From positions 3,147,001 through 3,211,000 of the forward strand of contig NZ_CP062222.1 in assembly GCF_017487405.1 (NCBI RefSeq): 64,000 nt of DNA, written 5' to 3'. A program made the translations under genes and the position numbers. The notes under the pieces are model-generated. The model was not told where the DNA came from. It searched no databases and worked only from the letters and a program-made list of their open reading frames with translations. Below, in pieces: positions 4,860 to 56,710 of this stretch; the stretch's first letter is position 1, and every line of letters starts with the position of its first letter. The stretch comes from Brevundimonas goettingensis (lineage in GTDB: Bacteria; Pseudomonadota; Alphaproteobacteria; Caulobacterales; Caulobacteraceae).

Positions 4860-5800
4860 TCATCGGCGCCGTCGGGGAGAAGGATTGGCGGAAGGTGAGG
4901 GCGCGGATGCCGGCTCCTCCGCTCCGCTCGGCGCGGGTTCGTCGGCCAGCAGGATGTTCACCTTGGCCTTGCCGCGGAGCTGCTCCAGCAGCCTGCGCAC
5001 GCCTTCATAGGTCAGATAGCGCACGATCTGGGGCCGCGCCTGTTCCAGGGTCGGCGGACTTTCCTTGCGCCGGTCCTCGACCCGCAGCACGGCCCAGCCG
5101 CCGTCCGTCTGGAACGGACCGACGGTTGAACCCGCCGGGGCGTCGCGCAGAGCATTGGCATAGGCCTGGGGCATGACATCGACTGTCGAATAGCCGAGGT
5201 CGCCGCCCGAGAACCGGGTCGCCTCGTCGACCGACCGCTCCTGTGCCACCGCCGAGAAGGCCGCGCCCTGGCTCAGGATGCCGATCACCGCGTCGGCTTC
5301 CGGCTTCGTCCGCGACAGGATCAGCCGCACCCGATCTCTTCCGAGCTCTTCGCCAGCTTGAGCTGCTCCTGGTACAGGGTCTGGACGGCCTGGTCGTTGA
5401 TGCGGCCGTTGACCTCGTTCTCGACCAGCATGTCGCCCATGATCCGCTCCTGGGTCGCCTTGAGGCGGCGCTGGGCGAGGATCGAATTGTCGAGGCCGCG
5501 GCGCTCGGCCTCACGGGCCAGCAGCTTCTGGTCAATGACCTCGTCCAGCACGCGCCGGAACAGGTCCGAGGTGACGTCCAGCGGTTCACCCTCGCCGACC
5601 AACCCTTGCGCCACCGCCTCACGCTTGACGTCGGAGGCCCAGATGGTCTGGTCCTGCACCTTGGCCACGGCCTGATCACCGGGCTCGGGCGCGCGATCCG
5701 CATCATTGCCGCCACCGCAGGCGGCGACCGTCAAAAGCCCCGCGAAAGCGATCAAGGTCAGAGGGTTGCGCGAAAGACGCCTTGTACGAAAAACGGACAA
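4860..5800 (-). CDS. Parvulin-type peptidylprolyl isomerase, lipoprotein (one frameshift)
   Basis: Periplasmic PPIase of the PpiC/SurA class. The N-terminus has a signal peptide with lipobox (LLTVAACGGG); residues ~45-150 form a SurA-like N-domain (ASDVKREAVAQGL, LDEVIDQKLLAREAERRGLD). The parvulin core follows (FSAVAQERSVDEATRFSGGDLGY, GPFQTDGGWAVLRVEDRR). Start is a TTG at 5800 with GGAG upstream. The frame breaks near 5333, where one C is missing between SSEEI and RVRLILS; otherwise complete, ending in a Ser/Pro/Arg tail. It lies next to argJ and diverges from secA, an arrangement familiar from Caulobacterales, fitting a role in handling Sec-exported proteins. Confidence 0.86.
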
Positions 5801-5838
5801 AGGAGGCTGCTCCGTTCCGGACTGGAATGCCCCTCGCG

Positions 5839-41967: not shown

Positions 41968-42690
41968 TTGAGCGGCACCCGAGACCTTTTCGCCGAGCTG
42001 GAGACCAGTTCCGAGCCGCATTGGCCGGAGGTGCGCGCCTGGCTTCAGGCCAATCCCCAGATCCTGCTGGACGACCGTTCCCTGCTGGAAGAGATCGGGC
42101 TGAAGCCGCACGGCCGTAACGTCGTGGAATTCGGCGCCGCCGCCCTCACCCGGCTGGAAGCCGTGGCCAACCGCGAGGCGGACGCCCGCAAACAGATCGA
42201 GACGGTCGCCCGCGCCAATTTCGCCGCCCAGACCCAGACCCATGTGGCGGCGCTGGACCTGCTGGAGGCCCGCAACCATTCCGACCTGGCCCGCCGTCTG
42301 GATGCGGCCGCACAGGGCCGCTTCGGTCTGGCGGGCGCCGCCATCGCGCTGGAGAAGCCGGGCGGCGTGCCCTTCGGCTGGCGCGCCCTGGAGGTCGGCG
42401 GGGTCGATTCCCTGCTTGGCGACCACGGCCTGACCTGGCTGGGTCCGAATTTCGAAGGGCTGGACCTGTTCGGCGCGGCCGATGAGCAGGTGAGGTCCGT
42501 CGCCCTGATCCGCATGGCACCGGTCTTCGGCGGCGATCCGGCCGGCGACCTCGGCGGCGCCCGCCACGCCATCTGCGCCTTCGGCTCGCCCGAGGAAGAG
42601 GGCTTCACGCCCCAGATGGGCTGCGAGCTCGTCGCCTTCATCGCCCGGGTCGTCGAGCGCACGGCCGAACGCTGGCCGATACTCAATTGA
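41968..42690 (+). CDS. DUF484-family protein upstream of xerC
   Basis: 240 aa, cytoplasmic, with a short N-terminal helix domain (PEVRAWLQANPQILLDDRSLLEEIGL), a coiled coil (LTRLEAVANREADARKQIETVARANF) and a GAF-like C-domain (DEQVRSVALIRMAP, CAFGSPEEEGFTPQMG). This is the DUF484 layout, which is widely found just before xerC. Start is TTG 41968 behind an excellent GGGAGGAG. The stop overlaps the xerC TTG start by 4 bases (TTGA). Confidence 0.87.
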   Translation: MSGTRDLFAELETSSEPHWPEVRAWLQANPQILLDDRSLLEEIGLKPHGRNVVEFGAAALTRLEAVANREADARKQIETVARANFAAQTQTHVAALDLLEARNHSDLARRLDAAAQGRFGLAGAAIALEKPGGVPFGWRALEVGGVDSLLGDHGLTWLGPNFEGLDLFGAADEQVRSVALIRMAPVFGGDPAGDLGGARHAICAFGSPEEEGFTPQMGCELVAFIARVVERTAERWPILN

Positions 42691-43604
42691 AAACCTCGGG
42701 CGAGGTCCTGCTCGCCTGGCTCGAGCATCTGGCGCATGAGCGGCGGCTGTCGCCCCGCACGCTGGAAGCCTATGGCCATATCGGGCGGCACTATCTCGGC
42801 TTTCTCGAACGCCATCGCGGCGACCCCCAGTCCCTGTCCGATCTGGGCACGGTGACCGCCGCCGAGGTCCGCGCTCATCTGGCCGAGCGGCGCAGCGGGG
42901 ACCATCCGCTGAACGCCCGATCGCTGGGCCAGACCCTGGCCGCCATCCGGGGCTTTCACGACTTCCTCGACCGGCGTTGCGATACGCCCGCGCCTCAGCT
43001 GGCGCTCGTGCGGGGGCCGAAGATCAAACCCTCCCTGCCCCGCCCCGTCACCGCCGATCAGGCGCGCGGCCTGATGCAGGAGCCCGAGGCCGATCCCGAC
43101 GCCGAGCCGTGGGAGGCCGCGCGCGACCGGGCGGTCCTGACCCTGCTCTACGGCTGCGGCCTGCGGATTTCCGAGGCCCTCAGCCTGATCCGCGCCGACG
43201 CCCCTTTCCCAGAGACCATTCGCATCGTCGGCAAGGGCTCCAAGACCCGCATCGTCCCCATACTGCCCGCCGTACGCGAGGCGGTGGATGCCTATCTTGC
43301 GTTGCAGCCCTTCCCGCCGGAGCCGCGCGACGCCCTGTTCCGGGCCAAACGCGGCGGGCCCTTGAGCCCCCGCCACGTGCAGGCGACGGTGCAGACACTC
43401 AGGGGCCGGCTGGGCCTGCCGGCCAGCGCCACGCCCCATGCCCTGCGCCACTCCTTCGCCACCCATCTGCTGGGCGCCGGGGCCGACCTGAGGTCGATCC
43501 AGGAACTGCTGGGCCACGCCAGCCTGTCGACGACCCAGAAATACACCGCCGTCGACGCCGCCCGGCTGCTCGGCGCCTATGCCGCGGCCCATCCCCGGGC
43601 CTAG
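42687..43604 (+). CDS. xerC: Site-specific tyrosine recombinase XerC
   Basis: Resolves chromosome dimers at dif with XerD. 305 aa: SAM-like N-domain (LLAWLEHLAHERRLSPRTLEAYGHIGRHYLGFL) and catalytic domain with R in LYGCGLRISEAL, K in GKGSKTRIVPIL, HALRHSFATHLL (H-x2-R), LLGHASLSTTQKYT (H and nucleophile Tyr). Start TTG at 42687, coupled to the DUF484 gene. Confidence 0.94.
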   Translation: MKTSGEVLLAWLEHLAHERRLSPRTLEAYGHIGRHYLGFLERHRGDPQSLSDLGTVTAAEVRAHLAERRSGDHPLNARSLGQTLAAIRGFHDFLDRRCDTPAPQLALVRGPKIKPSLPRPVTADQARGLMQEPEADPDAEPWEAARDRAVLTLLYGCGLRISEALSLIRADAPFPETIRIVGKGSKTRIVPILPAVREAVDAYLALQPFPPEPRDALFRAKRGGPLSPRHVQATVQTLRGRLGLPASATPHALRHSFATHLLGAGADLRSIQELLGHASLSTTQKYTAVDAARLLGAYAAAHPRA

Positions 43605-54607: not shown

Positions 54608-55308
54608 CTCGTCCTCCCTCGACGCGGCCGAACGATGGGCCATCGGCGGACATTGAACAACCGCCGTTTCCTGACGCTGCCTGTGACACAGCCTGCCCCG
54701 ACGCTGCGACCGCGTCTCATGTTCGGGACATGGTGCGGCGACAAGCCACTAGCCATTTCCACCCAAGCTGGTCTAACGTCGTTCGTCCATCGCGTGACGT
54801 CCGCGTTCGACAGACGGCCCGCCCCGAACCTCGCTGGTTGAACCTCACGGTTTCAATTTTGCCGGTTGAACCTCCGCTGGCTCCGGGACGGGCCGTCAAT
54901 CGCCCTGCCCCGACATAAGCAGCTCCAAGATCAGACGGCTTTGAGAAAAGCGTCCAGACTCGCTGAGCTCAGTCCTTCTCGTCCCTTGTCAGAGCATTGC
55001 ACGGACACCTGCGCTACCGCAGGTATTTGTCTCCGCCTGAGCATAAGCAGGACTTGTGAGTGTTGCAGACAATTCACTTGAGGCCGCGGTCGATTGGTGG
55101 CGTTTCACCCTTGGGCGACCTCTGTTTCCCATTTGCCGTTCGGGGGAACGGCCGATCCTTCCAGATCGGGAGGGTCCGGCGTTCCAGCACCGGGCCCTCC
55201 GTACCCATCCCTATGAAATCTCAACCTCCGGCATCATTGACGGCGAGCGCTTTCGGGCGCTCACTTCCGGAGAACGGCGTTGTCAGCGTCGACCCGAGGG
55301 GGCGGCTT
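54608..55308. other. Gene-poor intergenic stretch with hairpins and a repeated 11-mer
   Basis: About 700 bases with no convincing coding frame on either strand. It holds two copies of GGTTGAACCTC (54836-54846 and 54864-54874, 28 bases apart), a hairpin ACCTGCGctacCGCAGGT near 55006-55023, and a strong stem GGAGGGtCCGG / CCGGgCCCTCC at 55169-55179 with 55190-55200. Base composition is less GC-extreme than the neighbouring genes. It could encode an sRNA or be a remnant of an insertion; I cannot match it to tmRNA, SRP RNA, RNase P or 6S RNA. Confidence 0.5.
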
Positions 55309-55425
55309 ATGATGTATGTGATGTATCTGGTCGTCGGCGTGGCCGTCGTCGGCCTGTTCTATCTGGTCATCCGCGATGCGCTCGACCGCCGCCGTGTCGC
55401 CGTCAAACGCCGCAAGGATCGCTGA
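55309..55425 (+). CDS. 38-aa single-pass membrane protein
   Basis: MMYVMYLVVGVAVVGLFYLV followed by IRDALDRRRVAVKRRKDR: one hydrophobic helix and a strongly basic cytoplasmic tail. RBS-like GAGGGGG lies about 8 bases upstream of the ATG at 55309. It lies directly before the 136-bp tandem repeat, which starts one base after its stop. No homologue recognised; small size limits confidence. Confidence 0.5.
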   Translation: MMYVMYLVVGVAVVGLFYLVIRDALDRRRVAVKRRKDR

Positions 55426-55436
55426 AGCCTGAAAAC

Positions 55437-55464
55437 AGAAAAGCCCGATCCTTGCGGATCGGGC
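55437..55464 (-). terminator. tRNA-Gly terminator, distal copy
   Basis: GCCCGATCC ttgc GGATCGGGC stem with TTTT on the minus strand; the copy nearest the 38-aa gene, which it may also terminate on the plus strand. Confidence 0.6.
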
Positions 55465-55572
55465 CTTCGGTTCGACTGGAGCGGGCGAGGCGATTCGAAC
55501 GCCCGACCCCAACCTTGGCAAACTCACGCCGCCCGGGGCGAAGACAGGAAAACAAGGGCTGGGCCTGAAAAC

Positions 55573-55600
55573 AGAAAAGCCCGATCCTTGCGGATCGGGC
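55573..55600 (-). terminator. tRNA-Gly terminator, middle copy
   Basis: Identical hairpin, 136 bases from each of the other two copies. Confidence 0.6.
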
Positions 55601-55708
55601 CTTCGGTTCGACTGGAGCGGGCGAGGCGATTCGAACGCCCGACCCCAACCTTGGCAAACTCACGCCGCCCGGGGCGAAGACAGGAAAACAAGGGCTGGGC
55701 CTGAAAAC

Positions 55709-55736
55709 AGAAAAGCCCGATCCTTGCGGATCGGGC
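55709..55736 (-). terminator. tRNA-Gly terminator, native copy
   Basis: Same 9-bp stem with tetraloop, 13 bases past the CCA end of the tRNA; TTTT follows on the minus strand. Confidence 0.75.
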
Positions 55737-55748
55737 CTTCGGTTCGAC

Positions 55749-55823
55749 TGGAGCGGGCGAGGCGATTCGAACGCCCGACCCCAACCTTGGCAAGGTTGTG
55801 CTCTACCACTGAGCTACGCCCGC
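55749..55823 (-). tRNA. tRNA-Gly (anticodon GCC)
   Basis: 75 nt with encoded CCA. Acceptor stem GCGGGCG / CGCCCGC, D-arm GCTCAGTGGTAGAGC, anticodon stem-loop with CCTTGCCAAGG (loop TTGCCAA, anticodon GCC), T-arm GCGTTCGAATCGC, discriminator T. All arms pair. The 3' half is repeated twice downstream. Confidence 0.96.
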
Positions 55824-55927
55824 ACTCCGTAACGGCCCCTTCGGAAAGGCGATCCGTCTCGTCGAGAGGCGGCCGTATAGCGGACCCTCGCGGGATACCG
55901 CAAGGGTCTTTTTCGACTCTTTTCAGA

Positions 55928-56710
55928 TTATCTCGGCGCCAGACGGATCGCGCCGTCCAGACGGATGCATTCGCCGTTGATGTAGACGTTGCGGGCCAGC
56001 TCCAGCACCAGGGACGCATAGTCGGCCGGGCGGCCCAGACGCGACGGGAAGGGGATGGCGGCGGCGAGGGCGTCCTGGATCTTCTGGTCCATGCCGGCCA
56101 TCATCGGGGTCCACATGATGCCGGGCAGGATGGTGTTCACCCGCACGCCTTCCTGGGCCAGGTCGCGGGCGATCGGCAGGGTCATGGCGTAGACGCCGCC
56201 CTTGGACGCCGAATAGGCCGCCTGACCGATCTGGCCGTCCTGGGCCGCCACCGAGGCCGTGTTGACGATCAGGCCGCGTTCGCCGTCCTCCATCGGGTCC
56301 AGGCTCACCATGCCCAGGGCCGACTGCGACAGGACGCGGAAGGTGCCGAACAGGTTGATGCGCACGGTGCGCTCGAACGAGGCCATGTCGTGGGCGCGGA
56401 TCTCGCCGGTGTCCTTCTTGCGCGACACGGTCTTCTGACCCGTGGCGATGCCGGCGCAGTTGACGGTCAGCCGCTCCTGGCCGTGGGCGGCGCGAGCCTT
56501 GGCGAAGGCGGCGGCGACCTCTTCGTCGGAGGTGACGTCGACCTTGCAGAAGACCCCGCCGATCTCTTTCGCGATGGCCTCGCCCTTCTCCTCGTTCATG
56601 TCGAACAGGGCGACCTTTGCGCCCGTGGCGGCGATGGCGCGGGCCGTGCCTTCGCCGAGGCCGGAAGCGCCGCCGGTGACGACCGCGGCGATGGAGCTGT
56701 CGAGTTTCAT
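55928..56710 (-). CDS. SDR-family 3-hydroxyacyl-CoA dehydrogenase (HSD17B10/type II-like)
   Basis: 260 aa. VVTGGASGLGEGTARAIAATGAKVALFDMNEEKG, LTVNCAGIATGQKTVSRK, catalytic Ser in VNTASVAAQDGQIGQAAYSASKGG with Y-S-A-S-K, and the end GRPADYASLVLELARNVYINGECIRLDGAIRLAPR, all typical of bacterial homologues of type II 3-hydroxyacyl-CoA dehydrogenase. Likely in fatty-acid or branched-chain degradation. Divergent from the YkvA-like gene. Confidence 0.88.
   Translation of the reverse strand: MKLDSSIAAVVTGGASGLGEGTARAIAATGAKVALFDMNEEKGEAIAKEIGGVFCKVDVTSDEEVAAAFAKARAAHGQERLTVNCAGIATGQKTVSRKKDTGEIRAHDMASFERTVRINLFGTFRVLSQSALGMVSLDPMEDGERGLIVNTASVAAQDGQIGQAAYSASKGGVYAMTLPIARDLAQEGVRVNTILPGIMWTPMMAGMDQKIQDALAAAIPFPSRLGRPADYASLVLELARNVYINGECIRLDGAIRLAPR

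Follow-up and report, generated by a model that had tools for sequence, protein, structure and literature searches.

How does an intact tRNA-Gly gene of Brevundimonas goettingensis come to be followed by two further copies of its own 3′ half, each preceded by a 41-base spacer and followed by a terminator? A displaced piece of a tRNA gene is usually taken for the lone scar of a large island. We analyzed the locus in a window of 64,000 nucleotides, by which the whole stretch of DNA under analysis is meant, as well as in the complete 3.98-Mb single-contig genome and in relatives.

The half array of B. goettingensis

The features of the locus, all located on the minus strand, are as follows.

55928..56710, minus strand: SDR-type gene (named by reading alone) upstream of tRNA-Gly, used as tree marker
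55427..55834, minus strand: whole locus (tRNA and two 136-bp units), which served as search query
55749..55823, minus strand: intact tRNA-Gly with anticodon GCC and encoded CCA (ARAGORN; Rfam tRNA, 68.7 bits)
55749..55793, minus strand: the 45 nt that are repeated, the 3′ half of the intact tRNA-Gly from anticodon loop to CCA
55711..55740, minus strand: terminator 1, a 13-pair hairpin with T-run
55658..55698, minus strand: spacer 1, 41 bases, of which the last ~20 (55677-55658) are referred to as the arm
55613..55657, minus strand: 3′-half copy 1, 45/45 identical to tRNA-Gly
55575..55604, minus strand: terminator 2
55522..55562, minus strand: spacer 2, 41 bases, identical to spacer 1
55477..55521, minus strand: 3′-half copy 2, 45/45 identical to tRNA-Gly
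55439..55468, minus strand: terminator 3

An earlier note on this DNA had described a 136-bp tandem array with two extra 3′ halves, a repeat of 95 bases running from the anticodon loop to CCA and on through the native terminator, and three successive terminators, all of which was borne out. TRF reported the interval 55427-55793 with a period of 136, 2.7 copies, 100% matches, 0% indels, and a score of 734, and a repeat search showed that 55427-55562 and 55563-55698 are identical 136-nt copies in the assembly. Repeat comparison resolved the 95 repeated bases into the 45-nt half (TTGCCAA...TCCA) and 50 nt containing a 13-pair terminator-like hairpin. The three hairpins are located at 55740-55711, 55604-55575, and 55468-55439, and five terminator-like sites were detected in 55300-56000 compared to a mean of 0.7 in shuffles. 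When copy 1 was compared with the tRNA, identity began at base 1 of the anticodon loop (7 nt), 0 nt in front of the loop being shared. The full tRNA was called by ARAGORN (64-kb window) and by the Rfam tRNA model (genome); the halves were not. A pattern for the tRNA-Gly half yielded three matches in the genome, all at this locus, and a single tRNA-Gly(GCC) half-array locus was found in the whole 3.98 Mb. The two extra halves were read from the assembly, on which the copy number itself rests, and the layout of tRNA, spacer, and half recurs independently in relatives.

No integrase gene lies between tRNA-Gly and the halves, where the spacers measure 41 bases. The nearest PF00589 gene, which is XerC-like and located ~12 kb off (42687-43604), had its best NCBIfam match in TIGR02224, below the cut-off. 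Directly behind the array, at 55410-55421, a 12-nt inverted match to the terminator was observed. Further downstream, the search for another decayed unit gave only a weak match resembling a terminator, at 55170-55147 (p = 0.02 for the block, 0.09 for the half, and 0.09 for the whole unit).

Second halves within Brevundimonas

A near-intact second half, defined by an alignment score of at least 38 of 45 and a distance of 108-136 bp, was present in 26 of the 122 Brevundimonas genomes examined; these cover 131 genomes of the genus except for nine that were not placed. The 26 comprise 22 of the 119 oriented genomes (120 rows, with G061 entering twice, its second tRNA-Gly contig being counted apart) together with G110, G038, G041, and G128. 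In G038, the array sits on a contig that begins with the right end of an island, and G110, G041, and G128 were read by eye outside the 119, the tRNA of G041 lying off the contig and that of G110 containing an N. Decayed second halves were found in G010, G046, G116, G094, and G121. Judged from these genomes, the second half is shared within Brevundimonas and no private accident of one strain. On a separate contig, G061 (L287) has one more complete tRNA-Gly(GCC), with a different 3′ flank, representing either contamination or a true second copy.

The SDR-type gene occupies the same position in most Brevundimonas tRNA-Gly loci. On its tree, which has 104 rows and weak support for 34 of its 101 inner branches, 13 changes of the array label were required compared to 19.5 expected from shuffled labels, with none of 500 shuffles as low; G121 carried the array label despite its decayed second half, and 18 of the 122 loci, one of them an outgroup and including the arrays of G063, G066, G072, and G038, lacked an SDR gene usable for the tree. 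The 13 changes against 19.5 suggest that the array is either old or often regained, and that it has often been lost.

Break position and large islands at the same tRNA gene

In all 22 arrays, identity with tRNA-Gly begins exactly at base 1 of the anticodon loop (TTGCC), where the search patterns begin as well, so that halves breaking nearer the 3′ end would be missed. The arrays of G063 (L223) and G072 (L224) share an altered 3′ half, TTCGATCAGCC, which is 1 nt longer and is also the displaced island half of G049 (L288).

The earlier note had seen in this break the crossover point of tyrosine integrases, and the genus provides the matching case, since most large integrase islands at Brevundimonas tRNA-Gly break the loop at the same place. 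The displaced halves of nine of 11 large islands start at loop base 1 (0 nt; for G019, the common tRNA type was assumed in this scoring), and those of G104 and G090 start 3 nt and 5 nt earlier, respectively. A right-end arm GATCCCCAAC(A/C) was found in nine of the 11 island halves, with G104 and G049 carrying other arms. The six islands on one contig range from 34 to 238 kb. An integrase-like frame with the HxLRH motif starts 138-161 bp inside the right end in all five islands fetched, and the two island integrase frames tested by profile both match PF00589 and PF13356. A single contig of G121 shows a 76-kb island separating tRNA and array, and from two contigs of G038 we infer the same arrangement there. 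Segments of intermediate size, 1.2 kb in G090 (half to half) and 1.4 kb in G249 (tRNA to half), bridge the size range.

Short units outside Brevundimonas

Very short units were also detected in other genera. G146 (L384), which belongs to another genus of the family, carries a 53-bp unit in which the tRNA-Gly 3′ half is duplicated in tandem together with 8 nt from downstream, and in G170, which belongs to a third genus, the unit measures 99 bp and contains another insert; both break 1 nt before loop base 1. In Prevotellaceae (L058), a pattern with two bases fixed at positions -3 and -2 retrieved a 66-bp unit behind the tRNA-Gly(GCC) at 5737-5810 on the minus strand, with 43 identical nt, a break at 0 nt, and an insert that is not repeated after the second copy. 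In G158, a displaced half precedes a decayed one, the arm of which resembles the Brevundimonas arm by eye.

Halves following the tRNA allele and order of terminators

The second half is identical to that of its own tRNA in 17 of the 22 arrays, among which three alleles of the tRNA 3′ half occur. Distances of own pairs sum up to 30 over 22 pairs, and none of 20000 permutations, which ignore relatedness, was as low. The terminators behave as modules: G044 carries a G098-like terminator followed by a G046-like one, and G117 has the reverse order. The first terminator of G117 is 98% like that of G014, with third codon positions of the SDR gene agreeing only at 0.73, and its second terminator agrees better with the close relative G060 (0.88) than its first does (0.75). 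Among terminator pairs at 0.70-0.75, only 0.3% of 2166 reach 0.92 (genomes with the 780-nt SDR gene, G117 lying outside this set). Near relatives with a single tRNA resemble the first terminator (T1) in nine and the second (T2) in nine of 21 chosen pairs, with three ties, and this balance speaks against a simple one-way gain. By reading, T1 resembles host terminators more than an island end. The patchy presence, the following of alleles, and the order of modules suggest that the 45-nt direct repeats recombine by unequal exchange and gene conversion.

The 41 bases and the arm

The last ~20 of the 41 spacer bases, the arm, recur among Brevundimonas arrays. Arms agree at 0.77-0.80 between arrays with the same tRNA allele (one close pair 1.00) and at ~0.6 between arrays with different alleles (66 pairs from genomes with the 780-nt SDR gene; pairs with G117 are outside this set). 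For comparison, the flank further off agrees at ~0.45-0.56, the 16 bases before the arm at 0.62-0.70, and the 5′ leader of the tRNA at 0.67-1.00, so that conservation of the arm is not exceptional in view of the leader.

Behind single tRNAs, the arm was clear just in G032 (score 19) and weaker in G122 (13), and was otherwise seen in decayed arrays; among 82 single or decayed loci, scores of at least 15 were obtained for G032 and the decayed G094, G046, and G116 only. The best arm score averaged 8.9 at the 82 loci, 8.6 in control windows lying further downstream, and 7.9 in shuffled sequences. Across the order, the arm motif was detected in three of 398 genomes, all of them Brevundimonas, in a sample that included part of the genomes of the genus. 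The possibility that the 41 bases are the usual sequence behind the terminator found little support when the 82 loci were compared with the 22 arms, which gave 11 loci at p ≤ 0.05 with ~4 expected (60 simple shuffles each). An assignment of the arm to an island end found no support either, the Brevundimonas islands read carrying different arms.

Searches of IMG/VR viral contigs yielded no match to the arm. The plasmid search returned 208 records and the phage search 33; no record covered 80% of the query, and the matches listed for each search, 10 in number, were tRNA-sized. The earlier note had regarded the 41 bases as foreign. This holds insofar as they are largely not an ordinary sequence of relatives behind single tRNAs; it has to be modified insofar as the last ~20 bases, which are rare behind single tRNAs, recur among arrays and were found as the end of no island, plasmid, phage, or viral contig.

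Origin of the array

Based on the sequences compared, we judge it marginally probable that the two halves are old attachment-type scars of 3′ halves, made by an integrase at a hot spot of integration, stripped to terminator and arm, and later homogenised and amplified. A tyrosine integrase crossing over in the anticodon loop would first have displaced a 3′ half of the tRNA, and the element would then have been lost save for the terminator and a short end, the arm. Recombination between the 45-nt direct repeats would have homogenised the halves with the resident tRNA, and the unit of half, terminator, and arm would finally have doubled, two identical tandem copies being seen in the assembly. 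The array break, which coincides with that of most large islands at the same tRNA, counts for this account, and the main reason for preferring an integrase-type origin is that tiny units with an anticodon-loop break recur elsewhere. It counts against the account that no element bearing the arm was found in IMG/VR, plasmids, phages, or islands of the genus, and that T1 has, by reading, the look of a host terminator. The earlier note had proposed stacked attachment-site remnants amplified in tandem, and this is the best of the readings tested once three corrections are made: the scar is shared by 26 of 122 genomes of the genus, the halves appear homogenised with the tRNA, and no foreign element bearing the arm was found. 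The loop break and the perfect tandem speak for that proposal, in which the source element is putative.

The main rival, which we hold to be possible if rather doubtful, is a decayed tandem tRNA-Gly(GCC), in which a second gene would have lost ~14 nt from the D-loop to the 5′ anticodon stem, leaving the arm as a GGGC..AG(T/A) remnant and a 3′ half refreshed by gene conversion. Intact pairs do exist, at 120-126 bp in all 14 g22 genomes fetched (picked for two matches) and at 257-266 bp in three Brevundimonas, and in G302 two full copies enclose, by eye, a hairpin resembling a terminator. In a shuffled-arm test, the arm resembled tRNA bases 2-16 with p = 0.012 in B. goettingensis and with p ≤ 0.05 in 10 of 22 arrays (median 0.07) compared to none of three island arms, which favours the decayed gene, as does the fact that 8 of the 11 TTGG-type arrays pass this test. 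However, 2 of the 11 TGAG-type arrays pass, which argues against it, as do the position of the break on the edge of the anticodon loop, in common with islands and unrelated tiny units, and the inserts of those units, which by eye are unlike a tRNA 5′ half. Moreover, none of the oriented loci of the genus showed a complete second gene at ~110 bp.

We regard it as unlikely that gene-less units of ~110 bp, consisting of half, terminator, and arm, are actively gained and exchanged at the Brevundimonas tRNA via an integrase or via recombination of the 45-nt half. Species would in that case exchange terminators behind an essential tRNA gene, the tRNA being kept intact, and site-specific recombination would repeatedly give rise to loop-bounded units of 53-136 bp in different phyla.

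A plain tandem duplication would require replication slippage at the hairpin of the anticodon stem-loop, copying the DNA from the loop to past the terminator without an integrase. The array in the window is perfectly tandem, and the 53-bp unit of G146 looks like a tandem duplication including 8 nt of downstream sequence, in favour of this explanation. We nevertheless consider it quite improbable, as in 18 of the 22 arrays identity ends 0-8 nt past CCA (for G063 and G072 among these the value is not comparable, since their half is longer by 1 nt); in G000, G098, and G027 the terminator is repeated too, and in G100 the value is 13 nt. In addition, the rarity of the arm behind single tRNAs indicates that spacer and arm are more than a plain copy of the DNA downstream, and the Prevotellaceae insert is unrepeated past its second copy.

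It is highly improbable that arm and half constitute a selected tRNA-like RNA, transcribed and folded as a decoy or regulator: arm and half do recur across the genus and the GGGC of the arm could pair with the acceptor GCCC, but acceptor GCCC was computed to pair with the arm at a probability of 0.00-0.04 in all 22 arrays, giving no acceptor stem, a terminator lies upstream of each half, loss is patchy, and the T-arm is altered in G063 and G072. With each half behind a terminator, routine transcription of the halves, which the earlier note had assumed, is doubtful. A sigma-70 promoter scan detected no promoter-like site and was uninformative, since it missed the tRNA's own promoter too. Most likely, the half copies are passengers without a function of their own. 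Retroposition of anticodon-cleaved tRNA halves was also considered as an origin.

Relation to known systems

CIMEs are decayed elements that keep attL and attR but have lost their integration genes, and they occur with tandem accretion (PMC5704250, which cites Pavlovic 2004). The array would be similar to these systems in being a decayed element that keeps att-type ends and is stacked with others at one site; it differs in that no gene is left and the arm was matched to no element, and mobilisation in cis by a related element would be hypothetical here. Its half copies lie in register without a gene, and the arm was matched to no attP found.

Islander (PMC4383910) collects islands in tRNA genes, with the anticodon loop as crossover subsite A and a filter of 2-200 kb. 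The array shares with such islands an intact tRNA, a displaced 3′ fragment broken at a known integrase crossover subsite in the anticodon loop, and a tRNA that hosts large islands in the genus. In contrast to them, its unit of 136 bp lies outside the size range (short units in general measure 53-136 bp, islands 2 kb or more), an integrase in between is lacking, and several fragments stand in a row. The length and integrase filters would discard short half arrays, which represent a warning for island finders and for tRNA annotation. Fragments of tRNA genes beside insertions of ~9-23 kb are described for Thermococcaceae in PMC9897764; there, too, a partial tRNA copy marks an integration, whereas here short tandem units follow the tRNA allele. 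Tandem actinobacterial elements form arrays that are called unstable in PMC3218068. Tandem tRNA genes and pseudogenes are comparable in that relatives carry two full tRNA-Gly(GCC) in tandem, unlike the present locus, where the 5′ half is absent and the break lies at the anticodon loop.

No title or abstract on such short arrays was found, and none on genomic islands at Brevundimonas tRNA-Gly, which does not prove absence from print. Short scars that persist genus-wide, track the allele of the working tRNA, and multiply would provide a natural system for studying concerted evolution and exchange over a 45-bp repeat. If the units were indeed actively exchanged, terminators of an essential tRNA gene would be swapped by recombination.

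Left ends of the islands

A common left end was observed in six of the seven island left ends read, namely, in G038 (L299/L007), G121 (L297/L290), G020 (L294/L282), G090 (L295/L283), G091 (L296/L286), and G104 (L293/L280), but not in G049. All of these islands except that of G104 carry the right-end arm GATCCCCAAC(A/C). The genes near the left ends vary and are, by reading, of efflux type in G121 and of TonB-receptor type in G038. In G065 (L338, L285), the tRNA has an AGAG-type T-arm and the displaced half, located on another contig, is of the GGGC type; apparently, the island changed the allele of the tRNA 3′ half in this genome.
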